This document shows, piece by piece, positions 5,490 through 64,000 of a stretch of 64,000 nucleotides of DNA. The notes below the pieces were generated by a model. It was not told the origin of the DNA. It searched no databases and saw only the letters and a program-made list of their open reading frames with translations. This DNA is from Chloroflexota bacterium (lineage in GTDB: Bacteria; Chloroflexota; Dehalococcoidia; Lucifugimonadales; UBA3495). Location: NCBI GenBank assembly GCA_028873965.1, contig JAPPMU010000049.1, forward strand, positions 70,057 to 134,056, in the 5' to 3' direction. The position numbers were made by a program, and so were the translations under genes. The first letter of the stretch is position 1. Each line of letters opens with the position of its first letter.

Positions 5490-6659
5490 ATGAAGCGATA
5501 TATTAAGTACGTCGCCGGCGCGATGGTGATGGCCGGCATTGTGGCCATGATGGCCTGTACAGGAGAAGAGCCCACCGCACCCGCCCCCGTCGCTGAACCC
5601 ACCGCTCCCGCCGCTGCCACCGCCATGCCCGAGCCGCCCACCGACGCCGCTCCCACGCCTACCGAAGCCATGGCCATGCAGGCCGGCAACCGTCTCCAGA
5701 CCGTGATGGACCGCGGCCACGTCATCTGCGCCAGCCGCAACGACGTTCCCGGCTACGGGTTCCTGGACGCCTCCGGTAACAACGTCGGCTTCGACATTGA
5801 CCTGTGCCGCGCCCTGGCCGCTGCCGTTTTGAACGACCCGAATGCCATTGAGATCCGTCTGATCACCGCCGCCGAGCGCGGGCCCACCATCCAGTCCGGC
5901 GAAGTGGACATGCTGGTGCGGACCGTCACCTGGACCACCTCCCGTGACGCCCAGTGGGGCAACTACGCCCAGACCATGTTCTACGACGGCCAGGGCTTCA
6001 TGGTGAACCGGAGCCTGGGCATCGACAGCGCACTGGAACTGCAGGGCGCCTCCGTCTGCGTGACCCAGGGCACGACCACCGAGCTGAACCTGGCTGACTT
6101 CTCCAACCAGAACGGCCTCAACATCGAAGCGCTGACCTTTGAGGACACCGCGGCGGTTGTCGCCGCCTACGAGAGCGGACAGTGCGACGCCTTCACCAAC
6201 GACCGCTCGCAACTGGCCGCGCTGGGCACCTCCCTGGCCGACCGCGACGCCCACGTCATCCTGCCGGAGACCATTTCCGAAGAGCCCCTGGGCCCGGTGG
6301 TCCCCCACGGCGATGACACGTGGTTCGACATCGTGAAGACCGTGATGTCCATCCTGATCTACGCCGAAGCCTACGACATCAGCATGTCCAATATGCCGTC
6401 GGCCGCCACAGGCGAAACCAAGACGGACCGCCTGCTGGGCTTCGAAGGCTCCTGGGGACAGGAGAGCCTGGGCCTCAACCAGATGGCTGCACAGCAGGTG
6501 ATCAGCGCGGTCGGAAACTACGGCGAAATCTACGACCGCAACCTGGGTCCCAGCGGGATCAACCTGCCTCGTGAAAACGGGCGCAACGCCCTGTGGTCCG
6601 ACGCTGCCTGCGCCGACTGCCCCAAGGGCGGCCAGATCTACGCGGCTCCCTTGCGCTAA
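5490..6659 (+). CDS. aapJ: Polar amino-acid ABC transporter substrate-binding lipoprotein
   Basis: Encodes 389 residues. AGGAGG (5475-5480) lies before the ATG at 5490. Residues 1-25 are a lipoprotein signal ending in MMAC, followed by a Pro/Ala/Glu/Thr-rich linker to about residue 60. The binding domain (from LQTVMDRGHVICASRNDVPG) matches the general L-amino-acid family AapJ/BztA: GFDIDLCRALAAAV, QSGEVDMLVRT, and SVCVTQGTTTELNL. It would capture amino acids outside the membrane and deliver them to the permeases encoded next. A terminator after the gene probably makes the binding protein more abundant than the membrane parts. Confidence 0.92.
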   Translation: MKRYIKYVAGAMVMAGIVAMMACTGEEPTAPAPVAEPTAPAAATAMPEPPTDAAPTPTEAMAMQAGNRLQTVMDRGHVICASRNDVPGYGFLDASGNNVGFDIDLCRALAAAVLNDPNAIEIRLITAAERGPTIQSGEVDMLVRTVTWTTSRDAQWGNYAQTMFYDGQGFMVNRSLGIDSALELQGASVCVTQGTTTELNLADFSNQNGLNIEALTFEDTAAVVAAYESGQCDAFTNDRSQLAALGTSLADRDAHVILPETISEEPLGPVVPHGDDTWFDIVKTVMSILIYAEAYDISMSNMPSAATGETKTDRLLGFEGSWGQESLGLNQMAAQQVISAVGNYGEIYDRNLGPSGINLPRENGRNALWSDAACADCPKGGQIYAAPLR

Positions 6660-6688
6660 AGGCGAACCGCTGCGTTCCTGACGCAGTT

Positions 6689-6728
6689 GAGGGGTGACCG
6701 GCTTCAGTCGGTCACCCCTTATTTTGCC
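6689..6728 (+). terminator. Terminator or attenuator between binding protein and permeases
   Basis: A 10-bp stem (AGGGGTGACC 6690-6699 with GGTCACCCCT 6710-6719) is followed by a T-rich run. It lies inside the transporter operon, before the first permease, so it probably reduces read-through. A TAAAAT at 6765-6770 could be the -10 box of a second start for the permease genes, but I see no clear -35. Confidence 0.75.
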
Positions 6729-6817
6729 TTTAGACTGTGCCGGGCGTTCCCTCTCGTTTTGCGCTAAAATCGGCCCCACCCGGAAACCCGATACGTTACA
6801 CCGTCAGAGCCCACGCA

Positions 6818-8014
6818 ATGGCTGCGATACTTCAAAACCTCACCTACCAGGGCATCCCGATCTGGCGGCATGCCCAGATTATCCAGTGGACGGCACAGGT
6901 TGTGTCCGGCTTCCTGGTGGTTTTCCTGGTCGCGTGGTTCTTCTTCAACATCGCCAATGCCATTGACGAGCGGGAGATACCCTACGGGTTCAGCTTCCTG
7001 GAGCGCGCCTACCAGACCCCGATCGGGCAGCACTTCCTCCCCTACGAGACGTCGGACACGTTCCTGTACGCCTTCGTCGTGGCCGCGGTCAACACCATCG
7101 TGGTCTCCATCGTTGGCGTCATCCTGGCCACGCTGCTGGGAATATTCGTCGGCGTGTGCCGGCTGTCGACCAACTGGCTGGTGGCCAAGGTGGCCCTGGT
7201 CTATATCGAGTTCTTCCGCAACGTTCCCCTGCTCATTCAACTCTACTTCTGGTTCTACATCGTGCTGTCGCTGCCCCCCGTCCGTGAGGGCTACGTCATC
7301 GCCAACCGGGTGTACATCAACAACGCCGGCGTTTCGATACCCTTTCCGTTTGCTGATGGAGCGGCCGCGGCCCTAGTCTGGATCGCCCTTGCGGCGGCCG
7401 GCATAATCGCCGGGAACGCGGTCCACAAGGGCCTGACCCAGCGCGAAATCACCACCGGCCAGCCGTCCTATCCGCTGATCGGCGGGTTCGCCACCGCCAT
7501 CGCCGCCGGAGCCGTGGCGTGGCTGGTTATCAGTTTTGTCGCCGGCGCCCCTCTGGTCGTGTCTCAGCCGGCGCCCCAGGGCGCCTTCGGGCGAATCGCG
7601 GGCGGCTTTACCGTGTCGGGCGGCCTGATGGCGCTGCTGATCGGGCTGGTGATGTACACCTCGTCGTTCATCGCCGAAATCGTGCGGGCCGGAATCCAGT
7701 CCGTGGGCCGGGGACAGATAGAAGCGGCCCGTGCCCTGGGCCTCTCTCCCATGAGCACCCTGCGCCAGGTCACCTTCCCCCAGGCCCTGCGGGTCATAAT
7801 CCCGCCGCTGATCAGCCAGTTCCTCAACCTCACCAAGAACAGCAGCCTGGCCGGCGCCATCGGTTTCGCCGATCTCACCAACGTCGCCAAGACGATGACA
7901 CAGACCGCCCCCGCGATCAGCATTTTTATTCTCATCATGGCGGCGTATCTCGCCATGAGCCTGACCTACTCGCTGATTGGCAACCTGTACAACCGCCGCA
8001 TCCGCATCGCGTGA
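6818..8014 (+). CDS. aapQ: Amino-acid ABC transporter permease, AapQ-type
   Basis: Encodes 398 residues with about eight membrane segments. A hydrophobic N-terminus, the His/Glu/Gln/Arg-type permease start (FLYAFVVAAVNTIVVSIVG), and the cytoplasmic EAA loop near residues 295-315 (EAARALGLSPMSTLRQVTFP), which docks onto the ATPase, are all visible. Length and architecture, with the extra segment between helices, match AapQ/BztB of general amino-acid uptake systems. The next permease starts nine bases downstream, so the two are translationally linked. The start is the ATG before AAILQNL. Confidence 0.9.
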   Translation: MAAILQNLTYQGIPIWRHAQIIQWTAQVVSGFLVVFLVAWFFFNIANAIDEREIPYGFSFLERAYQTPIGQHFLPYETSDTFLYAFVVAAVNTIVVSIVGVILATLLGIFVGVCRLSTNWLVAKVALVYIEFFRNVPLLIQLYFWFYIVLSLPPVREGYVIANRVYINNAGVSIPFPFADGAAAALVWIALAAAGIIAGNAVHKGLTQREITTGQPSYPLIGGFATAIAAGAVAWLVISFVAGAPLVVSQPAPQGAFGRIAGGFTVSGGLMALLIGLVMYTSSFIAEIVRAGIQSVGRGQIEAARALGLSPMSTLRQVTFPQALRVIIPPLISQFLNLTKNSSLAGAIGFADLTNVAKTMTQTAPAISIFILIMAAYLAMSLTYSLIGNLYNRRIRIA

Positions 8015-13216: not shown

Positions 13217-13308
13217 GTCAGAATCAGGATTTACTGGATTTCAGGATTTTCGGGATTACACTTCCCTAATCCTGCCAATTTAATAATCTTGAAAATCCTG
13301 CTTCTGAC
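13217..13308. repeat. Repeat family A, copy 1 (short form)
   Basis: A 92-bp palindromic element. The outer arms are GTCAGAATCAGGATT and AATCCTGCTTCTGAC. Internal segments (GGATTTCAGGATT / AATCCTGCCAATTT) pair as inner arms. It lies between the Uma2-type gene and the SDR. Confidence 0.85.
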
Positions 13309-31258: not shown

Positions 31259-31287
31259 GTGTCACCTCCTGCTATCTCCTGGGGTTT

Positions 31288-31379
31288 GTCAGAATCAGGA
31301 TTTGCCGGATTTTAAGATTTCCAGGATTACGTTCCTGCAATCCTGCCAATCCTATAATCTTGAAAATCCTGCTTCTGAC
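31288..31379. repeat. Repeat family A, copy 2 (short form), inside the ilv-leu operon
   Basis: A 92-bp palindrome with outer arms GTCAGAATCAGGATTTGCC and CTTGAAAATCCTGCTTCTGAC. It is nearly identical in layout to copies 1 and 3, and lies between ilvC and leuA. Confidence 0.88.
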
Positions 31380-32421: not shown

Positions 32422-32464
32422 GCTGTTTTGTCCTTGTTGCCTTTCCGTCGTTACCATGCAATTT

Positions 32465-32557
32465 GTCAGAAGCAGGATTTGCCGGATTTCAGGATTTTCA
32501 GGATTACGTTAGCTAAATCCTGTCAATCCCAATAATCTCGAAAATCCTGCTTCTGAC
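32465..32557. repeat. Repeat family A, copy 3 (short form), inside the ilv-leu operon
   Basis: A 93-bp palindrome with arms GTCAGAAGCAGGATTTGCC and CTCGAAAATCCTGCTTCTGAC, between ilvH and ilvC. Together with copy 2 it brackets ilvC within one transcript. Confidence 0.88.
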
Positions 32558-32570
32558 GATTCGATACGGG

Positions 32571-33176
32571 TTAGACTCCCTCGTAGTGTCCCGGCGCCGA
32601 GCCTACCGCCCGTTCCGCCGAGAACCCGTTTCTTCCCATGATGATGGCGTCGGCGCCCACGTCGTCGCTGACCCGGCCGCCGGACTTGCCGCGCACCATG
32701 GCCACGCGGCCGGTGCGCATCAGCTCCAGGATGCCGAAGGGCTGCAGCAGGTCGTACAGGGCGTCGATCTTGTCCTCCTCCCCGGTGGTCTCCACCACCA
32801 GCGAGCGGGCGCCCACGTCAACCACCTTGGCGCGGAACAGGTTCACCATCTCCAGGATCTCGCTGCGGTTGGATGGGGTTGCCCGCACCTTGATCAGCGC
32901 CAGCTCCCGCGCCACCACGTCTTCCTCGGAGATGTTGGACACCTTCACCACGTCGATCAGCTTCTCCAGGTGGCGGGTGGCCTGCTCCACGGTGTACTGG
33001 TCGCCGGTGACGACGAAGGTCAGGCGCGACAAGCCCTTCTGTTCGCTGGCGCCCACGGCCAGGCTGGCGATGTTGAACCCGCGCCGCCGGAACAGGCCGG
33101 CCACCCGGGTCAGGACACCGGGCCGGTCCTGCACCAGCGCGATGATGGTGTGTTGTTCGGCGTTAGATGCGCTCAA
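32571..33176 (-). CDS. ilvH: Acetolactate synthase small (regulatory) subunit
   Basis: Encodes 201 residues from TTG at 33176, overlapping the ilvB stop by 14 bases. An N-terminal ACT domain (HTIIALVQDRPGVLTRVAGL, FRRRGFNIASLAVG) is followed by the C-terminal ALS domain (about residues 85-170). This subunit activates IlvB and confers valine feedback. The C-terminus is about 30 residues longer than typical and polar. Overlap with ilvB fits a fixed subunit ratio. Confidence 0.94.
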   Translation of the reverse strand: MSASNAEQHTIIALVQDRPGVLTRVAGLFRRRGFNIASLAVGASEQKGLSRLTFVVTGDQYTVEQATRHLEKLIDVVKVSNISEEDVVARELALIKVRATPSNRSEILEMVNLFRAKVVDVGARSLVVETTGEEDKIDALYDLLQPFGILELMRTGRVAMVRGKSGGRVSDDVGADAIIMGRNGFSAERAVGSAPGHYEGV

Positions 33177-35317: not shown

Positions 35318-35581
35318 TCACCGATACGCATCGCTGCGGTGCTGAACGCGGTGTACGGTGACACGGCGGTTGGCACGGTCGAGTTCGTAGATGGCCCGGT
35401 AGTCGCCTCTGCGGAGGCGAAACTGGCCGCGATAGCGGGGGTCTCTCAACGCATGGTGGCGCACCGCATCGACATTCTCCGCCATGCGGGTCAGCGCGGA
35501 TCGCATCTCCTGAGCTACCGTTGCATCCAGTCTGGACAACTCCCTTTCAGCCGTTTCCGTAAATTCCAGCGAATAGGCCAC
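35318..35581 (-). CDS. RelE/ParE-type toxin 1
   Basis: Encodes 87 residues from GTG 35581. The RelE fold is visible: LEFTETAERELSRLDATVAQ, then GQFRLRRGDYRAIYELD and the final VHRVQHRSDAYR with conserved Arg and His. Its start overlaps the antitoxin stop by one base (TAGTG). It is closely related to toxin 3 (37496), and even the 40 bases after both genes are alike, which points to a recent duplication. Confidence 0.88.
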   Translation of the reverse strand: MAYSLEFTETAERELSRLDATVAQEMRSALTRMAENVDAVRHHALRDPRYRGQFRLRRGDYRAIYELDRANRRVTVHRVQHRSDAYR

Positions 35582-36042
35582 TAGTCCAGTCCCAGCCGGC
35601 GGAACACTTCTTCCGCCGGTATGGTTTTGCCCGCCGCCGCTTCAGCTATGGACTGGTCCAACCCCGCCAAAAATTCCTCAGTGAACTCCAGCCCCTCATC
35701 AGGGTCGCCAATCAGGTCTTCTCCTACTTCTCCGACGATATAATGTATCCACCACTGAAAGTCGGCTACCGGAAGATCGGACACTTTTTGCGCCATTTTG
35801 GGCGATACGCCGGTTCCGTCAGTGGCTGCCGTCAAATGGGAATCGTCCGGCGGATGGACGAGTTCGGAATCATCCGCCCCGCCCCCTGGCTCAGTTTCCG
35901 GGACTGCGCCCTGGCATGGTTCCTGCTGATCAGACGCGCAACCCACTATCTCGGCAAGAGATGCCGTAACGGTTTCGCGGAGCAGCGCCACCAACTCCGC
36001 GATAGTCAAGTCGGCTACCGTTTGCGTTGCTTCTGTTGTCAT
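35581..36042 (-). CDS. Cognate antitoxin of RelE toxin 1
   Basis: Encodes 153 residues. Three parts are visible: an N-terminal helix (DLTIAELVALLRETVTASLA), a variable Gly/Asp/Glu-rich middle, and a C-terminal helical domain (VGEDLIGDPDEGLEFTEEF then AAAGKTIPAEEVFRRLGLD). The same C-terminal pattern is found in the antitoxin at 36318 and at the end of the ISP-like enzyme at 37753, so this part probably binds the toxin. No classical RHH or HTH is clear. Confidence 0.72.
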   Translation of the reverse strand: MTTEATQTVADLTIAELVALLRETVTASLAEIVGCASDQQEPCQGAVPETEPGGGADDSELVHPPDDSHLTAATDGTGVSPKMAQKVSDLPVADFQWWIHYIVGEVGEDLIGDPDEGLEFTEEFLAGLDQSIAEAAAGKTIPAEEVFRRLGLD

Positions 36043-36070: not shown

Positions 36071-36328
36071 TCAGTACACTTCGCTGCGGTGCCCGATTGA
36101 TTCCACCACTATTCGGCGGTTCTCCCGGTCGATGGTGTACAAAGCCCGGTAATCGCCAACGCGCAACCGGAACTCGCCCGCGTGCGGGCCGGTGAGAGCG
36201 ATGTGCCGGACTGTCTCGCAGTTTTGAGCCAACCGCCGCAACCCGGCCATAACCCGCCGCTCCACCGACGGATCCAGACGCGACATATTGGATCGAGCGG
36301 TGCGCGAGAGCTCCAGTCTATACATCAT
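36071..36328 (-). CDS. RelE/ParE-type toxin 2
   Basis: Encodes 85 residues from the ATG at 36328 (MMYRLELSRTARSNMSRLDP). The fold continues with GEFRLRVGDYRALYTIDRE and IVVESIGHRSEVY, holding the usual Arg/His residues. The start overlaps the upstream antitoxin gene by 11 bases. It is the middle of three RelE genes in this block and more distant from the other two. Confidence 0.86.
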   Translation of the reverse strand: MMYRLELSRTARSNMSRLDPSVERRVMAGLRRLAQNCETVRHIALTGPHAGEFRLRVGDYRALYTIDRENRRIVVESIGHRSEVY

Positions 36329-36803
36329 CGGGCCACTCAAGCCCCACTTCTTTCGCCACCTGCGCCGCGGGTATCGTTCTGCCGGCCGCTATATCCGCCG
36401 CCGACCTTTCCAACTGTTCCTGCGCCCAGGCGCTCAACTCCAGACCCGCGTCCGGGTCGCCGATCAACTCTTCCCCCACTTCATCGACGATGTAATAGAC
36501 CCACCATTCCAGATCGTCAACCGACAGGTCGCTCACCTTGCGCGCCATTTTTGCTGCAACTGCGGCTTCATCGTCCACGATCCGAACCCGCGAACCGGTC
36601 GCAGGATGGGCCGCCTTGGAGCCATCCGCTCCGGCCTCCGGCCCCGCAGCTGCGCCCGCGTCCGGGCGCGGCTCCAGCTTGGCGTCGGGGTAGCCTACGA
36701 TCCCGCCCAAGGCTTCGGCAACGGTTTCCCGGAGCAGTGTCAGCAACTCCGCCAACGTCAATTCGCCCGTAGTTTTCGGTGTCGGCGTGGTTTCAGCGGT
36801 CAT
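36318..36803 (-). CDS. Cognate antitoxin of RelE toxin 2
   Basis: Encodes 161 residues, homologous over its whole length to the antitoxin at 35581: N-terminal ELTLAELLTLLRETVAEALG, variable middle with repeated Ala/Gly, and C-terminal VGEELIGDPDAGLELSAWA then IAAGRTIPAAQVAKEVGLEW. The gene ends 11 bases inside the toxin gene. It supports a family of relBE-like modules duplicated in this island. Confidence 0.72.
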   Translation of the reverse strand: MTAETTPTPKTTGELTLAELLTLLRETVAEALGGIVGYPDAKLEPRPDAGAAAGPEAGADGSKAAHPATGSRVRIVDDEAAVAAKMARKVSDLSVDDLEWWVYYIVDEVGEELIGDPDAGLELSAWAQEQLERSAADIAAGRTIPAAQVAKEVGLEWPDDV

Positions 36804-36873: not shown

Positions 36874-37220
36874 TCAGAACAGAGCCCTCACCGCGGCCAG
36901 GATTTCCGCGGTTTTGGCGTCGGTGAGGCGGGCGACGGTATTGCCGAATCTGCTTTCGGCAAAGGTAGCCAGCCGGTCCGGGCGCACTTTGCTGTCCGGG
37001 TACAAACTTCCGGCCACCAAATCAGCCGCGCTGATGGGTATCGCCCTGCGGTGCGCTATCGGGCTTCAGGGCTTGTGCAAAGTCATTGTCAGAAGCAGGA
37101 TTTGCCGGATTTTGAGATTTTCAGGATGTTCGTAAATCCCGAAAATCCTCTAATCATGGTAATCCTGCTTCTGACAATTCCCGCCGGGATAGACTTTGCA
37201 ATGACGATATCGCCAACCAT
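36874..37220 (-). pseudogene. MazF/PemK toxin gene split by a family A repeat
   Basis: From ATG 37220 the frame reads MVGDIVIAKSIPAG, a MazF-like N-terminus, then enters repeat A copy 4 (37088-37175) and stops. After the repeat, in another frame, comes PIAHRRAIPISAADLVAGS, LYPDSKVRPDRLATFAES, to a stop at 36874, which is a MazF-like C-terminal half. About 40 central residues are missing. The start lies two bases after the small gene at 37223, its likely antitoxin. The toxin is surely inactive. Confidence 0.65.
37088..37175. repeat. Repeat family A, copy 4, inside the broken mazF
   Basis: An 88-bp palindrome with arms GTCAGAAGCAGGATTTGCC and GGTAATCCTGCTTCTGAC. The host DNA on the two sides carries an imperfect inverted repeat (TTGCAAAGT / ACTTTGCA). 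Confidence 0.85.
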
Positions 37221-37222
37221 GG

Positions 37223-37450
37223 TCAGTCTCTCTGCTCACGGATGTCGGGCAACGAGGCTAACCAGGCCTGGTATTCAGGATCATTATCGGATTCATCATA
37301 GTAGGAGTTGAAGGCTTCCAGCGCCATGGTCTCCCACTCGTGCTTGTCCCGGTTGTCGAACAGCATCAGGTGGCCATCTTCCCAAAGGAATTGCCCGGGC
37401 CGCTGCCCGAACTCACCGGGCGCAACCCGGTCGAAATCCATGCCCTGCAT
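37223..37450 (-). CDS. Small acidic protein, possible MazE-like antitoxin
   Basis: Encodes 75 residues. No DNA-binding domain is seen. The C-terminal half is acidic and aromatic (EAFNSYYDESDNDPEYQAWL). The stop lies two bases before the ATG of the broken mazF, so by position it should be the antitoxin or a coupled partner of that toxin. It follows RelE toxin 3 by 45 bases. Confidence 0.5.
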   Translation of the reverse strand: MQGMDFDRVAPGEFGQRPGQFLWEDGHLMLFDNRDKHEWETMALEAFNSYYDESDNDPEYQAWLASLPDIREQRD

Positions 37451-37495: not shown

Positions 37496-37756
37496 TCACC
37501 GGTACGCCTCGCTGCGGTGCTGGACCCGTAGAATGATTATTCGTCGGTTGGTATGGTCGAGATCGTACCTGACGCGGTAGTTCCCTACCCGCAGCCGGAA
37601 CAGGCCGCGGTATTGGCCGGTCAAGGCCTGATGCGGCCACGTTTGGGCTGACGCTGCCATTTCGCAGATTCTGCGCCGCACTCGCTGTTCTACTGGGGGA
37701 TCCAGGCCGGATAAGTCGGTTTCGGCGCGGTTGCTGAACTCCGCGTCATAGGTCAT
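37496..37756 (-). CDS. RelE/ParE-type toxin 3, coupled to the ISP-like gene
   Basis: Encodes 86 residues. It has the RelE fold (AEFSNRAETDLSGLDPPVEQ, GLFRLRVGNYRVRYDLD, IILRVQHRSEAYR). The ATG overlaps the stop of the 1087-residue ISP-like gene by four bases (ATGA). Where the other two modules have an antitoxin gene directly upstream, here the upstream gene is the restriction enzyme, whose tail resembles those antitoxins. The toxin looks complete, so something must neutralise it. Confidence 0.87.
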   Translation of the reverse strand: MTYDAEFSNRAETDLSGLDPPVEQRVRRRICEMAASAQTWPHQALTGQYRGLFRLRVGNYRVRYDLDHTNRRIIILRVQHRSEAYR

Positions 37757-40700
37757 GGATAGAGGCCGCGCTCTTTGAGGTCTTCCTTCAGGCGGGCGAA
37801 ATCCTCATCGGGCATGACAGAGCGGCCGGCGGCTCGCACTTCCTGCTCGTACTCCAACAACTCCACCAATACCTCGGGACGCAACTCCAGCCCCTCGTCC
37901 GGATCAATCTCCGTCCACCTATCCAACTCGTAATCCGTAATCCGATACGTCTTCACGCTCACCGTGCACACCCGCCGCAGCAGGTCGATGACGCGCTCCT
38001 TGTGGTCGGCGAAGCGGTAGGTGTTGAAGCGCTCGCGGATGGTGGGGTCGCGGGGCTTGCGTTCCTTGTACTGGTCGAGGACCCACTCCAGGGCGGAACG
38101 GCTGCCCAGCTCGTACCACCACGCCTCATTGGGGACGCCGGCCAGCGTGGTCTGCTCGTCCAGCCGGATGATGCCCCGCTCCTTATCCGCCCGCAGTATC
38201 ACCCTCGGATTGCGCCTATCCCCTTCATCCCGTTTATCCCGTTCATCCCTGTCAATTTCCACCCGCTCCAGAGGCCACGGCTCGGCCGTCTCAAAGCCCA
38301 GGTGCAGGTCCAGCAGTTCCCGACCCTTGCCGGCCCACCACGCGAAATCCTGCTGGAAATAGACTCGCGGAAACTCCCGCCGCAGGTCGATCTCGAACCG
38401 CTGGCGGTAGGCGGGGTCGTGGAGCATGGCGTACACGTAGGCGAAGATGTCCTCGGCGGTGATGCCGTCGTCGCCGTAATGCTCGCGGAACCGGCGCAGA
38501 CCCCACTGGGTGATGTTGCTGACCCGCTCGCCGTCGGGCGTGTAGCGGTAGAGGGGGAGGCATTGGTTGTCGCCAACGAAATGCAGGTCAACCAGTTTGT
38601 TTGATGCCAAGACGTAGAAAGACCGATACCTGGCAGCGAAATTGATTGTTGGGTTATCTACAATTTGCTGGTGCGGGAAAATTTGAGGCATCTGATAGCG
38701 GCGATGGGTAACGATGGGCGCGTAGTAGCAATGTTTGGCAACGAATGGCCGGTACATGGCACGGGTCATATTTGCGGTTGAAAAATGCACTGCATCGCCT
38801 TGCACCAGATGGCTTTCCAGTTCGGATGTCCATTTTATGGACCTGTCGATCCAATCACCTAAAGCAGTGGGGGCCGGCTTTTCTTTTTCATACCGTTGCA
38901 GTTCTTCCCTATACACATTTGAAAAGAACAGCACTTTGTTCGAGAGGGCGTCGAAATCGAAATCGTAAGTCCATTCATCACGGTTAGTGGCGATACCAAG
39001 CGAGAACAACCCGAACACCGCCTGCTCATCAGCGGCCGTCTTGGCCAGTTTGGTCTCTCGGTTGGCAAGCGGCAGCAATTCCTCAAATCGGCTATTGGAT
39101 TGGTCAAGCCAGTAGGACTTCGAATCGGGAACGATACTTTCAAACCCGATGCTGTCCAGCGGGGCATCACGCAAATAGGCCAGTTTTTCCGAAGCGAGTT
39201 CGGCATCCTCGCGTCGTGCGTAATGGATGTTGCACTCGCCCATCTTGGCCTTTTCGCGCACGAAGAAACCGATGGCGACGCCGGTTTGTATGCCGAACAC
39301 GTTGTGAGTAGTGCCGGATATTTTCGGGTTGCGTCGCACGTCCGAACCAAGGTCGAGCACATAAATATCGGTGAATTCCTGCGCCGCTAGCTGTCGAAAA
39401 CCGTCATCTTGCCGAGTATCCAGATAGGCCCGATTGGTGATAAAGCCGATGATGCCGTCGTCGGCCAGGCGGTCCGACGCCCAGCGGATGAACCGCTTGT
39501 ACATGTCGTACTGCTTGGTCTTCTGGGCGGTGCTGGCGGCGATGTAGGTCTCGCTGATGCGGCGGTCGATGGCGGGATACTCGCGGTTCTTGTTGTTGTC
39601 GTTCTCGTTCTGCTGGTTGGCGTTGTAGGGCGGGTTGCCGATGATGACGGAGATGGCCTTTTCGTTCTGCTCCTGGACGCGGATCCAGTTCTCCTCGGAG
39701 ACGCCGCCCAGGTTGAAGGCGCCCTGGCGGGTGACCGCGCCGCCGCTGGCGCCCTGCCAGTCCATGTTGTCCAGGGTGTCCACGAAGCAGAGGTTGGGGA
39801 ACTCCAGGTAGCGGCCGGTGCGCTCCTTGTAGGTGTACTCGATGTTGAGGTTGGCGATGTAGTAGGGGAGGATCGCCACCTCGTTGGCGTGGATCTCGTT
39901 GCGGTACTTGTACTCCAGGCGGTCGGCGGGCAGGTGGTTGATGAGGCCGGTGATGAAGGTTCCGGTGCCGGTGGCCGGGTCGAGAATCTGCACGTTGTCA
40001 TCGGCCAGGGTGCGCCCGAAGTGCTTCTGCAGCAGGTGGTCCGTGCCGCGGATGATGAAGTCCACGACCTCGTTGGGGGTGTACACCACGCCCAGGCGGT
40101 CGGCGGCGGCAGGGTTGTAGGCCTGATAGAAGTCCTCGTAGATGGCCTTGAGGAACTGCTGCTTTTCGGCGTAGTCGGCGATCTCGTCGGCGGCGCGGCC
40201 GATGGCGCCGTAGTAGAGGCGGAGGCGGTCGATGGCCTCGCGGCGGGCGTCGCCGGTGAAGAAGGTGCTCTCCAGGGCGTCCAGCTGGCGGGCGACGTTG
40301 TTCTCGCGGTGGAACTGGTCCTCGGCGAAGACGCGCAGGAAAATGTCGCGGGTGAGGATGTGCTGCAGCAGCATCTCGCGCACGTCGGCGTCGGTGACGT
40401 CGGGGCTGATGGTCTGGCGGCAGAGGCTCAGGAAGAGGGCGGCGGCGGCCTGGTAGTCGGCGTTGCCGGCCTCGGCGTCGGCCACGGCCTCGCGGAGGCT
40501 CTCGAGGACGGCGGGCAGGTCGGCCTTGAACTGCTGGCGGGCCTGCCGGAACTCTTCGATTTCGGGCAGCTCGTAGTCCAGGAAGCGGCGGATGAGGCGG
40601 TGCAACTCGCCCGGGCGGGACATGTCGACGCGCATGGCGACGTTGCCGTTCTGGATGAGCACGGCGGTCTGGGAGTCCTCGAAGAGGATGTTGTCCCGGG

Positions 40701-41016
40701 GGTAGCCGCGGTTGAACTTGGCCTGGATCTCGGCGTCGAGGTCGTCGTGGGTGTCCTTGGCCTCCCAGTAGCCGCGGGCCATGCGGAGGGAGTCCTTGAC
40801 GGTGCCGTCGGGCCGTATCCCCGTTCCAGTCGAGCGGGAGGAGCCCCCGGCGTCGAGCTCGTCGACGAGGGCGAGCTTCTCGCGGTGGTCGCGGCAGTAG
40901 GAGTCGAGGCAGACGGCGAAGGCGCGGCGGATGCTCTGCTCGTTGTCGGAGCCGCCGAACTCGCGGAAACGCTGAAGGTCGGCGTGGTAACGCTCGATGT
41001 GGGGGTGGGAGGGCAT
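37753..41016 (-). CDS. ISP-like restriction-modification enzyme with antitoxin-like tail
   Basis: Encodes 1087 residues. Order: Mrr-like PD-(D/E)XK nuclease (P69-D70, E85-A-K87), helical region, N6-adenine methyltransferase with LGVVYTPNEVVDFI, motif I DPATGTGTF (about 345) and motif IV GNPPYN (about 460), then a target-recognition part with YRPFVAKHCYYAP. The helicase of LlaGI-type ISP enzymes (about 1570 residues) is absent. The last 50 residues (EIDPDEGLEL, AAGRSVMPDEDF, KERGLYP) resemble the neighbouring RelE antitoxins. Residues about 919-938 come from a family C repeat. It overlaps relE by four bases. Confidence 0.85.
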   Translation of the reverse strand: MPSHPHIERYHADLQRFREFGGSDNEQSIRRAFAVCLDSYCRDHREKLALVDELDAGGSSRSTGTGIRPDGTVKDSLRMARGYWEAKDTHDDLDAEIQAKFNRGYPRDNILFEDSQTAVLIQNGNVAMRVDMSRPGELHRLIRRFLDYELPEIEEFRQARQQFKADLPAVLESLREAVADAEAGNADYQAAAALFLSLCRQTISPDVTDADVREMLLQHILTRDIFLRVFAEDQFHRENNVARQLDALESTFFTGDARREAIDRLRLYYGAIGRAADEIADYAEKQQFLKAIYEDFYQAYNPAAADRLGVVYTPNEVVDFIIRGTDHLLQKHFGRTLADDNVQILDPATGTGTFITGLINHLPADRLEYKYRNEIHANEVAILPYYIANLNIEYTYKERTGRYLEFPNLCFVDTLDNMDWQGASGGAVTRQGAFNLGGVSEENWIRVQEQNEKAISVIIGNPPYNANQQNENDNNKNREYPAIDRRISETYIAASTAQKTKQYDMYKRFIRWASDRLADDGIIGFITNRAYLDTRQDDGFRQLAAQEFTDIYVLDLGSDVRRNPKISGTTHNVFGIQTGVAIGFFVREKAKMGECNIHYARREDAELASEKLAYLRDAPLDSIGFESIVPDSKSYWLDQSNSRFEELLPLANRETKLAKTAADEQAVFGLFSLGIATNRDEWTYDFDFDALSNKVLFFSNVYREELQRYEKEKPAPTALGDWIDRSIKWTSELESHLVQGDAVHFSTANMTRAMYRPFVAKHCYYAPIVTHRRYQMPQIFPHQQIVDNPTINFAARYRSFYVLASNKLVDLHFVGDNQCLPLYRYTPDGERVSNITQWGLRRFREHYGDDGITAEDIFAYVYAMLHDPAYRQRFEIDLRREFPRVYFQQDFAWWAGKGRELLDLHLGFETAEPWPLERVEIDRDERDKRDEGDRRNPRVILRADKERGIIRLDEQTTLAGVPNEAWWYELGSRSALEWVLDQYKERKPRDPTIRERFNTYRFADHKERVIDLLRRVCTVSVKTYRITDYELDRWTEIDPDEGLELRPEVLVELLEYEQEVRAAGRSVMPDEDFARLKEDLKERGLYP
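38203..38262. repeat. Family C repeat inside the ISP-like gene
   Basis: On the minus strand, CAGGGATGAACGGGATAAAC followed by GGGATGAAGGGGATA repeats a 9-base GGGATGAAC unit. It matches 61718-61776. It adds about 20 residues (DRDERDKRDEGDRRN) and keeps the frame open. Confidence 0.7.
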
Positions 41017-41740
41017 GGTGAATTGGTCAACGGCTGCGTTAATTCACGCTCTCTTGTAGGCCTCGTGTTACCCGCGCTGGCAGCACGAACAGAATTTCAG
41101 CCAAAGCCAGGGCGAAATCCAGCGACCTTTGTGCTTCCTCAGTAGTCGGGAATTGGGCGCTTTCATCAGCGTGCCTCTGGTCATTTGCATCCAGTCTCAC
41201 CTGGTGCGCCCAGGTAGCCATATCGTCCGTGATAAGGTGACCATCCGCAGCGTCTTTAATGCGCTGGTAAAGGCTACCGTCCTTATACCCTTTGGCTTTG
41301 AGCATCGCGTCAACCGCACTGGCGGCAAGCATTACCGCTCCTGACGGTGCGTGAAGGGAATCCTTGCATTGCTGCAAGTAGTTCCTGGCAGCATCGTCTA
41401 TAGAGTCGTCAAGATTTTCGTCGCTTGGGTAGGTTTCCAAGCGTATCAGCTCTCCATAAGGATCATCTCCCCAAGCGGTAGTAACAACACCACCGCACCT
41501 GGCACAGTGATAAAAACCCCATTGACGGCGATCCCTTCTTACTGAGTCTGCGGTTTCAATCCCCTGGAACTTCTCCAAATTCGGGGTTGCAACCCTGCAA
41601 TGAGGGCACCGATCAAGTTCCAGTTGCCTCGGTGTAAAAGGCGCATTTGAGTCAAGGATCATAGGTTTGGGTTCTCCGTAGGATGTCTACTGCGTTAGTT
41701 ACCGCTTATAACGCTCGATGTGGGGGTAGGAGGGCATGGC
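40987..41740. repeat. Short direct repeats flanking the DUF4145 gene
   Basis: TAACGCTCGATGTGGGGGTG plus GGAGGGCATGG (40987-41018, the 5' end of the ISP-like gene) recurs with one change at 41707-41738, and CTGCGTTA lies near both (41033 and 41690). The interval holds only the DUF4145 gene. This looks like insertion of that gene after the enzyme start, with duplication of the first codons. The gap 41741-41835 is empty. Confidence 0.65.
41039..41662 (-). CDS. DUF4145 protein, restriction-associated
   Basis: Encodes 207 residues. The N-terminal part has two C-x-x-C pairs (DRCPHCRVA, YHCARCGGV), likely one zinc site. The C-terminal helical DUF4145 domain (SGAVMLAASAVDAMLKAKGY, DAADGHLITDDMATWAHQVR) is typical of proteins found beside type I and ISP restriction systems. 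It is the gene just upstream of the ISP-like gene, 22 bases away. The biochemical role is unknown. It may sense or regulate. Confidence 0.82.
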   Translation of the reverse strand: MILDSNAPFTPRQLELDRCPHCRVATPNLEKFQGIETADSVRRDRRQWGFYHCARCGGVVTTAWGDDPYGELIRLETYPSDENLDDSIDDAARNYLQQCKDSLHAPSGAVMLAASAVDAMLKAKGYKDGSLYQRIKDAADGHLITDDMATWAHQVRLDANDQRHADESAQFPTTEEAQRSLDFALALAEILFVLPARVTRGLQESVN

Positions 41741-47477: not shown

Positions 47478-47502
47478 CGGGAGCGTTAGCCTGTCGTAAA
47501 TC

Positions 47503-47612
47503 GTCAGAAGCAGGATTTACGGGATTTTATGATTTTGCAGGATTGGGAACGCTACATCACAGAACGGTTCCCATCCTGGTAATCATCAAATCTTGAAAAT
47601 CCCGATTTTGAC
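47503..47612. repeat. Repeat family A, copy 6 (long form)
   Basis: A 110-bp element with arms GTCAGAAGCAGGATTTACGG and AATCTTGAAAATCCCGATTTTGAC, the right arm worn. An extra central hairpin (CAGGATTGGGAACG / CGGTTCCCATCCTG) marks the long form. Confidence 0.8.
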
Positions 47613-53638: not shown

Positions 53639-53679
53639 GCCGCCTCCTGCTCCCTCATGCGCACCTGCCTGCGTAAATC

Positions 53680-53788
53680 GTCAGAAGCAGGATTTACATG
53701 ATTTTATGATTTGACAGGATTGGGAGGTCTCCATCGCGGAACGATTCCAATCCCGTTATCCCTGAATCTCGAAGATCCTGCTTCTGAC
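53680..53788. repeat. Repeat family A, copy 7 (long form)
   Basis: A 109-bp element with arms GTCAGAAGCAGGATTTAC and GAAGATCCTGCTTCTGAC, plus the central long-form hairpin (CAGGATTGGGAGG / CGATTCCAATCCCG). Confidence 0.85.
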
Positions 53789-61786: not shown

Positions 61787-61895
61787 ATCAGAAGCAGGAT
61801 TTACCGGATTTTATGATTTGACAGGATTGGGAGATATCTATCACAAAACGGTCCCGATCCTGATAATCCGTAAATCTTGGGAATCCTGATTCTGA
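61787..61895. repeat. Repeat family A, copy 8 (long form)
   Basis: About 109 bp, with arms ATCAGAAGCAGGATTTACCGG and TTGGGAATCCTGATTCTGAC and a central hairpin around GGGAGATATCTATC. Confidence 0.8.
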
Positions 61896-61899
61896 CGAT

Positions 61900-62238
61900 T
61901 TATGAAAGTGGATACGCATGAGGCGACTTGCGGTATTGCGGCCAGGTGGGGTCATTGATCTCGGTGTAGAGGACCAGGGCGTACGTGGTGATGCCGGCGG
62001 CGCGGATGGGTTCGTCGGTGACCCGGAAGAAGGAGTTCATCAGGTGGCCGTCGAGCACGGGATTGGTGGGGTCGGGAGCGGTGTACAGGAGTCTCACGTC
62101 GAAGAACTCCTCCTCGTCAGCGTTCAGCCTGACGGTGACTTCGGCGTCGTGGAATTGGACGGAGGGCGGGAAGTGGGTTCTCGCGCCGTCGAGAATTATT
62201 CTCTTGATGGTGTCTATTTCCTGTTGGGTGATGGACAT
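61900..62238 (-). CDS. Hypothetical protein
   Basis: Encodes 112 residues. An N-terminal helix (ITQQEIDTIKRIILDGARTH) is followed by three or four beta strands (VTVRLNADEEEFFDVRLLYT). No known family. It lies between copies 8 and 9 of family A, both within 110 bases. Confidence 0.5.
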   Translation of the reverse strand: MSITQQEIDTIKRIILDGARTHFPPSVQFHDAEVTVRLNADEEEFFDVRLLYTAPDPTNPVLDGHLMNSFFRVTDEPIRAAGITTYALVLYTEINDPTWPQYRKSPHAYPLS

Positions 62239-62339
62239 TTGGGGCCTCGCGTGGTGATGGTCTCTGTTTTGATGCTATGGGGCGAAATCTCGATAGTCAA
62301 TGCCTGGAGAAAAGGCGTGCGTACCCGCCTTTGTAAATT

Positions 62340-62449
62340 GTCAGAAGCAGGATTTACGGGATTTTATGATTTGGCAGGATTGGGAGATCTCCATCATGGA
62401 ACGGATCCAATCCTGATAATCCTCGAATCTTGAAAATCCTGCTTCTGAC
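62340..62449. repeat. Repeat family A, copy 9 (long form)
   Basis: A 110-bp element with perfect outer arms GTCAGAAGCAGGATTTACGG and CTTGAAAATCCTGCTTCTGAC, extended by GTAAATT / GATTTAC outside. Confidence 0.88.
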
Positions 62450-62486
62450 GATTTACGCATTAGAGTACGGAGCTGCGTGCTATTCT

Positions 62487-62539: not shown

Positions 62540-64000
62540 ATGACGCCGATGATGCCTACCATATCGCCGGGGGAGTTTGTGGGTCGCTGGCGGGATGCCG
62601 GGTTTGGAGAGCGGCAGGGGGCGCAGTCGTTCTTCAACGACCTGTGCGGGCTGGTGGGCCACGCGACGCCGGCGGCGTTTGGCGATCCGGAGGCGTACAC
62701 CTTCGAGAAGGCGGTGCCGGGCGGTTTCGCCGACGCATATTACGAGGAGCATTTCGGCTGGGAGTTCAAGGGGCAGGACGCGCAGCTGGACGGCGCATTC
62801 GACCAGCTCCTGCGCTACCAGGTGCACCTGAAGACGCCGCCGCTGCTCATCGTGTCGTCCTTCGAGACGATACGGATCCAGACCAACTTCCCGGGGATGG
62901 AGACGGCGCGCTACGACGTCGGCATCGGGGAATTCGAGGAGCCGGCGCGGCTGGAGTTGCTGCGGGACGTGTTCTTCGCGCCGGCCCGGTTCCGCGAACG
63001 GCTGCGCTCGGTGGACGCGGTGACCCGGGAGACGGCGGCGGTGTTCCAGTCCATCGTGGTGGACATGGAGCAAGCCTCCTCCGTCACCCCGCACCAAAAC
63101 TCCAAAGACAACGTCACCCCGCACTCCGATGCGGGGCCGGAGCGGCTGGCCCGCTACCTGAACCAGCTGGTGTTCTGCCTGTACGCGGAGGACGCGGGGC
63201 TGCTGCCCGATGGCCTGTTCACCCGCATCGTGGCGCAGCACTACCGCAGTCCGGAGACCTTTGATCGGGCGGTGCGGAGCCTGTTCGCGCAGATGGCCAC
63301 GGGCGGGTTCTCGGGGGCGGACGAGATCGCGCACTTCAACGGCGATCTCTTCAACGTGGTGGACACCGTGGAACTGAGCACCACGGCCCTGCAACGGCTG
63401 GGCGAGGCGTGCGAGCGCAACTGGCGGGACATCGAGCCGTCGATCTTCGGGACGCTGTTCGAGCGGGCGCTGGACGCATCCAAGCGGGCGCAGACGGGGG
63501 CGCACTACACCGGCGCGGACGACATCGAGCTGGTGGTGGAGCCGGTGGTGATGACGCCGCTGCGCCGGGAGTGGGAGGCGGCGCGGGGGGAGATTGAATC
63601 GTCAGAAGCAGGATTTTCGGGATTTGAAGGATGGACAGGATTAGGGGATCTTCCTCCATTGGACGGCTCCAATCCCGATAATCCTCCAAATCCGGTGCAT
63701 CCTGCTTCTGACAATTCACCGGCGCGGCGACGGCTGGAGGCGTTCCGGGAGCGGCTGGCGTCGGTGCGGGTGCTGGATCCGGCGTGCGGGAGCGGGAACT
63801 TTCTGTACATCGCGCTGAGGTCGCTTTTGGATTTGGAGAAGGAGGTGATTGACTACGCGGCGGCGCGGGGGTGGCTGGGGCTGACGCCGCGGGTGCAGCC
63901 GGACCAGATGCTGGGGCTGGAAATCAACCACTACGCGGCGGAACTGGCGCGGACGGCGCTGTGGATCGGCTACATCCAGTGGCACCAGGCCAACGGGTTC
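62540..64000 (+). CDS. MmeI/YeeA-like class I DNA methyltransferase, cut by the window edge
   Basis: At least 487 residues, open to the right end; ATGs at 62540, 62549 and 62552. Visible are the helical N-terminal part (FFNDLCGLVGHATP, LRYQVHLKTPPLLIVSSFE), ATGGFSGADEIAHFNGDLFN, IEPSIFGTLFERAL, motif I LDPACGSGNFLYIAL and LGLEINHYAAELARTALWIG. Type IIL and YeeA-like enzymes have this order. Two repeats interrupt it in frame (63095-63140 and 63601-63712). The catalytic NPPF/Y motif lies beyond the edge. Confidence 0.85.
   Translation, partial: MTPMMPTISPGEFVGRWRDAGFGERQGAQSFFNDLCGLVGHATPAAFGDPEAYTFEKAVPGGFADAYYEEHFGWEFKGQDAQLDGAFDQLLRYQVHLKTPPLLIVSSFETIRIQTNFPGMETARYDVGIGEFEEPARLELLRDVFFAPARFRERLRSVDAVTRETAAVFQSIVVDMEQASSVTPHQNSKDNVTPHSDAGPERLARYLNQLVFCLYAEDAGLLPDGLFTRIVAQHYRSPETFDRAVRSLFAQMATGGFSGADEIAHFNGDLFNVVDTVELSTTALQRLGEACERNWRDIEPSIFGTLFERALDASKRAQTGAHYTGADDIELVVEPVVMTPLRREWEAARGEIESSEAGFSGFEGWTGLGDLPPLDGSNPDNPPNPVHPASDNSPARRRLEAFRERLASVRVLDPACGSGNFLYIALRSLLDLEKEVIDYAAARGWLGLTPRVQPDQMLGLEINHYAAELARTALWIGYIQWHQANGF
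63095..63140. repeat. Family B hairpin in frame in the methyltransferase gene
   Basis: AACGTCACCCCGCACTCCGA-TGCGGGGCCGGA matches the inner hairpin at 10807. It encodes about 15 residues (DNVTPHSDAGPE) and leaves the frame open. Confidence 0.7.
63601..63712. repeat. Repeat family A, copy 10, in frame in the methyltransferase gene
   Basis: A 112-bp long-form element with arms GTCAGAAGCAGGATTTTCGG and GGTGCATCCTGCTTCTGAC. The host frame runs through it (SSEAGFSGFEGWTGLGDLPP and so on) and continues into RRRLEAFRERLASVRVLDPA with no stop. Confidence 0.9.

Follow-up and report, generated by a model that had tools for sequence, protein, structure and literature searches.

How does a RelE-type toxin gene come to lie directly behind a restriction-modification (RM) enzyme gene, and what might hold the toxin in check there? 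The question is raised by the window, the whole 64,000-nucleotide stretch of Chloroflexota DNA analysed here, in which an ORF of 1087 aa (37753-41016, minus strand) runs into relE3. Its antitoxin-like tail is encoded directly before relE3 and the two genes overlap by ATGA, as in the gene order of type II toxin-antitoxin (TA) systems; the ORFs bear out both the overlap and the lack of a separate antitoxin gene there, which the first-pass annotation had pointed out, since nothing lies between them. We propose, with a probability of about 0.8, that a DrdV-like Type IIG RM enzyme has received a transplanted antitoxin tail that would restrain the adjacent RelE, that loss of the enzyme would free the toxin, and that such cassettes have been swapped.

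The enzyme core and its antitoxin-like tail

Judged by its database matches, the window enzyme is a DrdV-like Type IIG/IIL RM enzyme, a single chain with predicted nuclease, methyltransferase and target-recognition parts. Pfam matches of the core (PF22240, PF02384, PF07669, PF18135) include the N6_Mtase, coupler and Type_ISP_C domains, the last being the target-recognition domain. Residues 7-1028 match PADLOC PDLC03621 (E 1.4e-286), residues 7-1027 are homologous to DrdV (PDB 7lo5, E 3e-299), and Foldseek finds the same fold (E 1.6e-79). The motifs GTGTF and GNPPY (residues 460-464) mark an N6-adenine methyltransferase, and a candidate PD-(D/E)xK nuclease motif, IRPDGT...YWEAKD, spotted by eye only, lies at about residues 67-88. 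The enzyme had earlier been called ISP-like, a label that we replace. Pfam reports no helicase domain, and so no sign of the SF2 helicase/ATPase expected between nuclease and coupler in an ATP-dependent Type ISP enzyme. LlaGI and LlaBIII align from residue 195 to 1028 only, through the coupler, methyltransferase and target-recognition domains; Type_ISP_C and the coupler are common to both kinds of enzyme.

The tail is not a normal part of this enzyme family. The chains of DrdV (7lo5), LlaGI and LlaBIII, none of which has a tail, all stop about 9 residues past position 1028 (DrdV 8 residues after its aligned part), and plasmid and phylum-wide relatives likewise end near residue 1037; the tail of the window enzyme starts at 1038. 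Alignment of the five RelB-type enzyme tails with stand-alone antitoxins by hhalign gave a probability of 97.9% (E 3.6e-13, 43 columns), BLASTP found 45% identity over 42 aa between the window tail and the antitoxin at 35581 (E 2e-6), and the tail of a sister enzyme, L022, shows 77% identity across 39 aa with a 70-aa stand-alone antitoxin encoded before a relE. The resemblance first noticed from short motifs (DPDEGLEL, AAGRS..MPDE and a terminal GL(YP), all of which are there) is therefore beyond chance, and profile comparison shows residues 1038-1087 to be homologous to that end of RelB-type antitoxins which binds the toxin. Roughly 30 aa that form the N-terminal part of the stand-alone antitoxins are missing from the tail, and the RM enzyme stands there instead. 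In the predicted model, a low-confidence joint (1041-1045) leads into helices 1047-1062 and 1070-1082; the last 20 residues deviate from the customary TIPAEEVxRRLGL ending. Pfam searches of the tails and a search of PDB chains with the RelB-type tail profile returned no match, and two tails have weak matches to RelB-like models of NCBIfam (E 0.002-0.004). The same antitoxin family occurs with a downstream relE in other Chloroflexota.

The product of relE3 fits the RelE/ParE superfamily by its RelE-type basic residues and C-terminal R..Y (PF05016, 3g5o_B and alignment). It keeps the family-conserved R54, R56, R61, H80, R81 and Y85, which we take to correspond to residues of E. coli RelE. Two adjoining stand-alone antitoxins of the tail's family, within 2 kb in the window (Table 1), could neutralise RelE3 in trans. 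They speak for a by-product reading, which we nevertheless hold to be unlikely, in which the enzyme was joined by a deletion to the last part of an antitoxin gene beside it, leaving the tail idle and RelE3 to the stand-alone RelBs. At locus L040, an ordinary RelB-RelE pair lies behind an enzyme without a tail, a plausible starting state for such a fusion.

Table 1. Features of the locus and its surroundings, in positions of the window
Feature	Position	Strand	Basis
Enzyme core, residues 1-1037	37906..41016	(-)	DrdV-like Type IIG; Pfam, PADLOC, PDB, Foldseek
RelB-type antitoxin tail, residues 1038-1087 (DPDEGLELRPEV...ERGLYP)	37756..37905	(-)	hhalign vs stand-alone antitoxins
relE3, RelE/ParE-superfamily toxin, intact	37496..37756	(-)	PF05016 E 1.3e-9; PDB 3g5o_B 1.2e-5, 2khe 1e-6
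Detached second-type (MazE-like) tail, relic of former enzyme C-terminus; homologous part 37223-37385	37223..37450	(-)	L041 comparison
Broken mazF: start ~37221-37200, end 37066-36876, middle lost	36876..37221	(-)	Similarity to intact L041 mazF; translation
Palindromic repeat element interrupting mazF	37067..37199	(.)	Self-complementary match
Stand-alone RelB-type antitoxin, 161 aa, tail reference	36318..36803	(-)	ORF and homology
relE paired with 161-aa antitoxin	36071..36340	(-)	PF05016 6.8e-8
Stand-alone RelB-type antitoxin, 153 aa, tail reference	35581..36042	(-)	Weak NCBIfam RelB_ParD match
relE paired with 153-aa antitoxin	35318..35581	(-)	PF05016 3.8e-10

Tails and toxins among related loci

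Close relatives of the enzyme, from metagenome-assembled genomes (MAGs) of sponge-associated Chloroflexota with several percent contamination, bear one of two unrelated tails. Rather than recurring in many enzymes without relE, the RelB-like tail was found at 5 loci, and relE or its remains lie at the junction in all five, the toxin gene being degraded in two of them (L032 and L047). The second type of tail is intact at about 23 loci, 20 of which have an intact abutting mazF. Enzyme relatives in other phyla and tail-less relatives yielded neither tail nor toxin; an intact toxin abuts 23 of the 32 tailed enzymes versus none of the 23 tail-less ones (Fisher p 1.5e-8), or versus none of 10 when only close relatives are counted (p 6e-5), values that are optimistic because the loci share ancestry. 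Tail type matches toxin type in 23/23 cases. By this gene order and co-occurrence, a tailed enzyme with an abutting toxin is a general design in these relatives. The tail had been suggested at the outset to be the antitoxin of the adjoining RelE, and the five junctions, the tail-less loci without toxin and genome G006 support that suggestion at the level of sequence. Searches of this single-contig genome turned up no RelB-type antitoxin besides the tail and, besides the adjoining RelE, no other RelE of that family; in G025, also a single contig, the tail was likewise alone among confident RelB-type antitoxins, with no other above chance. An intact relE is retained behind the tail in both genomes, which is hard to reconcile with an idle tail and neutralisation in trans.

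The toxin of the sister loci is MazF/PemK (PF02452, 4.4e-9 and 3.1e-11). Its partner tail matches no family in Pfam or NCBIfam and has no detectable homology to known MazE; hhalign against the local stand-alone MazE is not significant, and only a short acidic W-containing ending is alike. No PDB relative of this MazF was found, and viral contigs yielded nothing homologous to the second tail. At locus L050, where the second tail is joined to MazF via a natural in-frame TAG, an AlphaFold model reached a pLDDT of only 35 from a 10-row alignment, too low to be informative. Going by tail and toxin families, the pairing of the second tail with MazF repeats the RelB-tail/RelE design independently, which would not be expected of a by-product.

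A tail might also serve to recruit the RNase, which would then be an additional effector arm of the RM enzyme, delivered or activated at a recognised target, instead of being inhibited. The toxin would be docked on the enzyme under either reading, and for the second tail the computed data do not part docking from inhibition. We consider such recruitment very unlikely: the part of antitoxins to which the RelB-type tail is homologous is the inhibiting one, and decay runs one way, no intact toxin having been seen abutting a broken tail among the loci surveyed, which suits inhibition better.

Exchange of tail-toxin cassettes

The window tail and that of L032 share 95% nucleotide and 98% amino acid identity on distant cores; identity over residues 1016-1037 is 62-69% at the nucleotide level, with a sharp boundary at residue 1038. 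In the core tree, the window core pairs with a second-type-tailed enzyme (96/99), and the RelB-tailed enzymes require at least 3 changes, a single clade being rejected (p 4.6e-4). Distances of the second tail correlate with those of MazF (r 0.67; partial 0.64) more than with those of the core (r 0.29), a sign of co-evolution with a permutation p of 2e-4, again optimistic given the shared ancestry. Both partners are under purifying selection (median dN/dS 0.35 for the tail and 0.36 for MazF), and between the window and L032 tails dN/dS is 0.09. As read from these comparisons, tail and toxin have moved between enzyme cores as one cassette, RelB-tail with relE and second-type tail with mazF. An idle tail would be expected neither to be transferred at 98% identity, nor to be acquired at least three times, nor to show such a low dN/dS.

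The window itself preserves traces of an exchange. The first-pass annotation had let the locus end with relE3; the relevant stretch reaches ~36870, so as to take in an older, displaced tail and the broken mazF that follow downstream. The detached second-type tail is 88.7% identical at the nucleotide level to the enzyme tail of L041, and in its genus this tail is joined to the enzyme gene in 15 of 16 copies, the window copy being the sole exception. The HMM match of the mazF remnant covers positions 45-107 only; the palindromic element interrupting it has many more copies across the window. L002, a paralogue in the window's own genome, has its mazF broken by the same interruption and retains the arrangement without the RelB-tail/relE insertion. 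On this comparative evidence, the RelB-tail/relE cassette was placed inside an older enzyme/second-tail/mazF locus, and the window keeps a relic of that exchange.

A possibly guarded or addictive restriction enzyme

In the mechanism that we propose, the enzyme would stand in for the antitoxin's own N-terminal part and carry the 50-residue RelB-type toxin-binding end at its C-terminus, with relE3, the matching RNase-type toxin gene, presumably coupled to it translationally through ATGA. We infer that the tail would bind and neutralise RelE as long as the enzyme is made. Without a working enzyme the toxin would probably be released: if the enzyme gene were lost or interrupted, or the protein degraded or blocked, RelE would go un-neutralised, exert its presumed toxicity and stop translation. 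The cell would thereby be addicted to the RM gene, and toxin release may also give it a weapon against phages whose target is the enzyme. A narrower version of this explanation, purely selfish addiction in which the tail-toxin pair keeps the RM gene from being lost and plays no part in phage sensing, has in our estimate slightly less than an even chance. Gene order alone would be enough for it under standard type II TA logic, and RM systems already count as addictive (PMC12707154); the sequence does not separate it from a guard role.

The guard role of RelE is suggested by analogy with PrrC/EcoprrI, in which an RNase guards a Type IC RM enzyme (PMC12707154). There, as is proposed here, a restriction enzyme keeps a translation-blocking RNase inactive, and phage inhibition of EcoprrI frees PrrC. 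However, PrrC belongs to the anticodon nucleases and is held by a Type I complex of several subunits, whereas the window locus would combine a single-chain Type IIG enzyme with a type II antitoxin domain taken from elsewhere, the tail/toxin pairs being interchangeable. RelBE, or MazEF for the sister loci, is resembled in the PF05016 toxin, the RelB-like C-terminus and the overlapping antitoxin-toxin order, but here the putative antitoxin does not stand alone as a small protein: a 1037-residue RM enzyme takes the place of its N-terminal part. In Panacea/PanA systems, antitoxin modules recombine with unrelated toxins (PMC10440598); there, one promiscuous antitoxin domain serves many toxins, whereas here two unrelated tails, each with its own toxin, share one RM enzyme. 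In the literature covered, which took in few subscription journals and no preprints, we found no antitoxin tail described for any RM enzyme.

At such loci, standard RM and TA annotation would show an orphan toxin next to an RM enzyme and nothing more. The loci provide a clean case of antitoxin tails exchanged as cassettes and a direct, testable model for the way in which RM enzymes come to be addictive or shielded from anti-restriction. PrrC is the main known case of a toxin guarding a restriction enzyme; at these loci, the guard would run through an antitoxin domain borrowed by the enzyme, and its wiring would span many related loci and two unrelated toxin families. We see even odds that a whole clade of Type IIG enzymes in sponge-associated Chloroflexota is armed in this way, with the enzyme acting as antitoxin for exchangeable RelE and MazF RNases, so that attack or loss would lead to translation arrest and cassette swaps, such as the one recorded in the window, would re-arm the locus after toxin decay.

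A Type IIG enzyme with an additional C-terminal tail

Judged by its sequence, the window enzyme is a Type IIG restriction-modification (RM) enzyme of the DrdV kind. A match to PADLOC PDLC03621 spans its residues 7-1028, DrdV (7lo5) aligned to residues 7-1027 (E = 3e-299), and structure comparison found the predicted fold in agreement with DrdV. Pfam reported ISP coupler, N6-methyltransferase, and Type_ISP_C domains and no helicase domain in this enzyme; thus, the label "ISP-like" in the first-pass annotation did not hold in its strict sense, and DrdV-like Type IIG replaces it. Since the chains of DrdV, LlaGI, and LlaBIII end 8 to 9 residues past the position of enzyme residue 1027/1028, the family's normal end lies at about residue 1037, and residues 1038-1087 are additional to its usual length. 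In a full-length AlphaFold model (mean pLDDT 74), the last core helix spans 1006-1034 and is followed by an uncertain joint (pLDDT <50 at 1041-1045) and a tail of two predicted helices, 1047-1062 and 1070-1082.

The antitoxin likeness that the first-pass annotation had claimed for this C-terminus was recovered by profile-profile alignment, in which the five enzyme tails matched stand-alone antitoxins with an E value of 3.6e-13 over 43 columns. In the sister enzyme L022, 39 tail residues align at 77% identity with the end of a stand-alone antitoxin of 70 aa encoded upstream of a relE, and other Chloroflexota also hold this antitoxin family with relE downstream. The claimed ATGA overlap of the enzyme gene and relE3 is likewise present, with no intervening sequence or antitoxin gene. 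A 75-aa ORF, mazF remains, and two ordinary antitoxin-relE pairs follow 3' of relE3. Immediately upstream of the enzyme gene, and possibly co-transcribed with it, is a gene for a zinc-ribbon/DUF4145 protein (PF13643, 1.6e-8).

Features of the locus and copies of the palindromic repeat
Feature	Position	Strand	Remark
Zinc-ribbon/DUF4145 gene	41039-41662	minus	
Enzyme gene	41016-37753	minus	1087 residues
relE3	37756-37496	minus	shares ATGA with enzyme gene end
Palindromic repeat, mazF copy	37067-37199		
Palindromic repeat, other copies	~13217-13308, 31286-31379, 32463-32577, 47500-47543		
Palindromic repeat, other copies	~53668-53720, 61788-61900, 62336-62453, 63598-63717		

Coupling of tail and toxin types

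All genomes compared are MAGs, including the window's (3.9 Mb, 70 contigs), whose named relatives are Dehalococcoidia/SAR202-type Chloroflexota MAGs. Five of 58 distinct enzyme C-termini carried the RelB-type tail. The relE behind it was intact in three (window, L037, and L022), internally deleted in L047, and reduced to 'MT*' in L032; a check for such tails lacking a downstream relE therefore found the gene, intact or degraded, in 5/5. Sister enzymes bear a second tail (motif 'MAYWEDGHLIVFGDRDK.EW...DDDPEYQAWLASLPDI', plus a shorter form), directly followed in 20 loci by a PemK/MazF toxin gene (PF02452). Where 350 nt or more of sequence was available downstream, an intact abutting toxin was found in 23/32 tailed versus 0/23 tail-less loci (Fisher p = 1.5e-8) and, for close relatives only, in 23/32 versus 0/10 (p = 6e-5), related loci being counted as independent in both. 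Tail type matched toxin type in 23/23. Neither tail nor toxin occurred in 30 loci from a phylum-wide search or in four plasmid relatives. From these sequences, enzyme, tail, and matching toxin appear to be a general design with two tail types.

Second-tail and MazF distances correlated across 20 loci (r = 0.67; partial correlation 0.64, permutation p = 2e-4), versus r = 0.29 for the tail and its own enzyme core, suggesting that the second tail is co-inherited with MazF and hardly with the core. Their dN/dS values are nearly equal (tail 0.35, MazF 0.36). In 247 genomes, 20 of 21 MazF relatives (E <=3e-18) abut such an enzyme, and the remaining one lies 0.5 kb behind one. None of the loci with broken tails (L002, a paralogue in the window's genome, L042, L085, L088, and L121) has an intact abutting toxin; broken-toxin loci can retain the tail (L032, L047, L033, and L035). 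Such an asymmetry would be expected of a toxin that does harm when its tail is missing. Context, co-evolution, and decay mark the second tail as a putative antitoxin.

In genome G006 (one contig, holding L037), the enzyme tail is the only RelB-type antitoxin match genome-wide (E = 1.2e-22) and the gene next to the enzyme is the only RelE of relE3's family; in G025 (one contig), nothing except the tail matched better than E 0.4. In the window's genome, RelE3 could also be a target of the two stand-alone antitoxins encoded alongside it.

Several related loci differ in layout. L040 (= L017; 6087-6890) encodes a tail-less enzyme, a separate 172-aa RelB-type antitoxin, and relE, plausibly the ancestral state, from which tail fusion could arise by deletion. 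In L050, L045, L044, and L048, mazF is in frame with the enzyme tail behind a single TAG stop; therefore, read-through would yield an enzyme-toxin fusion protein. A HigB-like toxin ORF, recognized by eye, lies ~190 nt past the relE of L037 (~6616-6912), which suggests a larger toxin-antitoxin cluster. The tail-less enzyme of Geminocystis plasmid pGM04 (L219, 947-5510) has a Fic family protein encoded 110 nt downstream; Fic proteins can be toxins.

Cassette exchange in the window

Locus L041, with the order enzyme, second tail, mazF, matches the window up to 37948, past which the window holds 562 nt (RelB tail, relE3, and ~110 nt) versus 26 nt in L041. At 37385 the match restarts, covering the second tail and the mazF start (88.7% identity), and from 37066 it takes in the mazF end, the mazF middle being replaced by a palindromic repeat. 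This repeat, self-complementary, ~94 nt long, with ends TTGTCAGAAGCAGGATT / AATCCTGCTTCTGACAA and many window copies, looks like a non-autonomous or REP-like element. The same genome encodes a second DrdV-like enzyme (L002/L120, G000:C57:71582-75549; 73% identity over residues 1-1029). Its locus has the window's arrangement minus the cassette, the identical mazF interruption, and a TAG stop within the second-type tail, and is decayed and disarmed.

The core tree joins the window enzyme to one bearing the second tail (96/99) and sets it well apart from the RelB-tailed group of L032, L047, and L037 (100/97; L032 and L047 are also labeled L128 and L129). A single clade of RelB-tailed enzymes was rejected (p = 4.6e-4), as was a window-L032 clade (p = 1e-4). 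The window and L032 tails nevertheless share 95% nucleotide and 98% amino acid identity, and the high identity sets in abruptly at residue 1038. In our reading, a dead-mazF locus was re-armed with a RelB-tail/relE cassette. Nucleotide identity to L032 also falls to 44-52% at residues ~550-800 (flanks, 80-90%), within and before the target-recognition domain, which marks a second, independent module exchange in this gene that probably changes DNA specificity.

Proposed function of the tail

Homology, coupling, co-occurrence, co-evolution, and exchange are evident at the sequence level, and we consider it likely (about 0.8) that the tail functions as the antitoxin of the toxin encoded next to it. 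By the biology of type II toxin-antitoxin systems, the tail would wrap and block RelE, the ATGA overlap would couple toxin synthesis to that of the enzyme, and enzyme loss would free RelE. A phage-sensing role is clearly less probable. By analogy with PrrC/EcoprrI (PMC12707154), in which phage inhibition of an RM enzyme releases an RNase, enzyme inhibition by phage might also set off the toxin.
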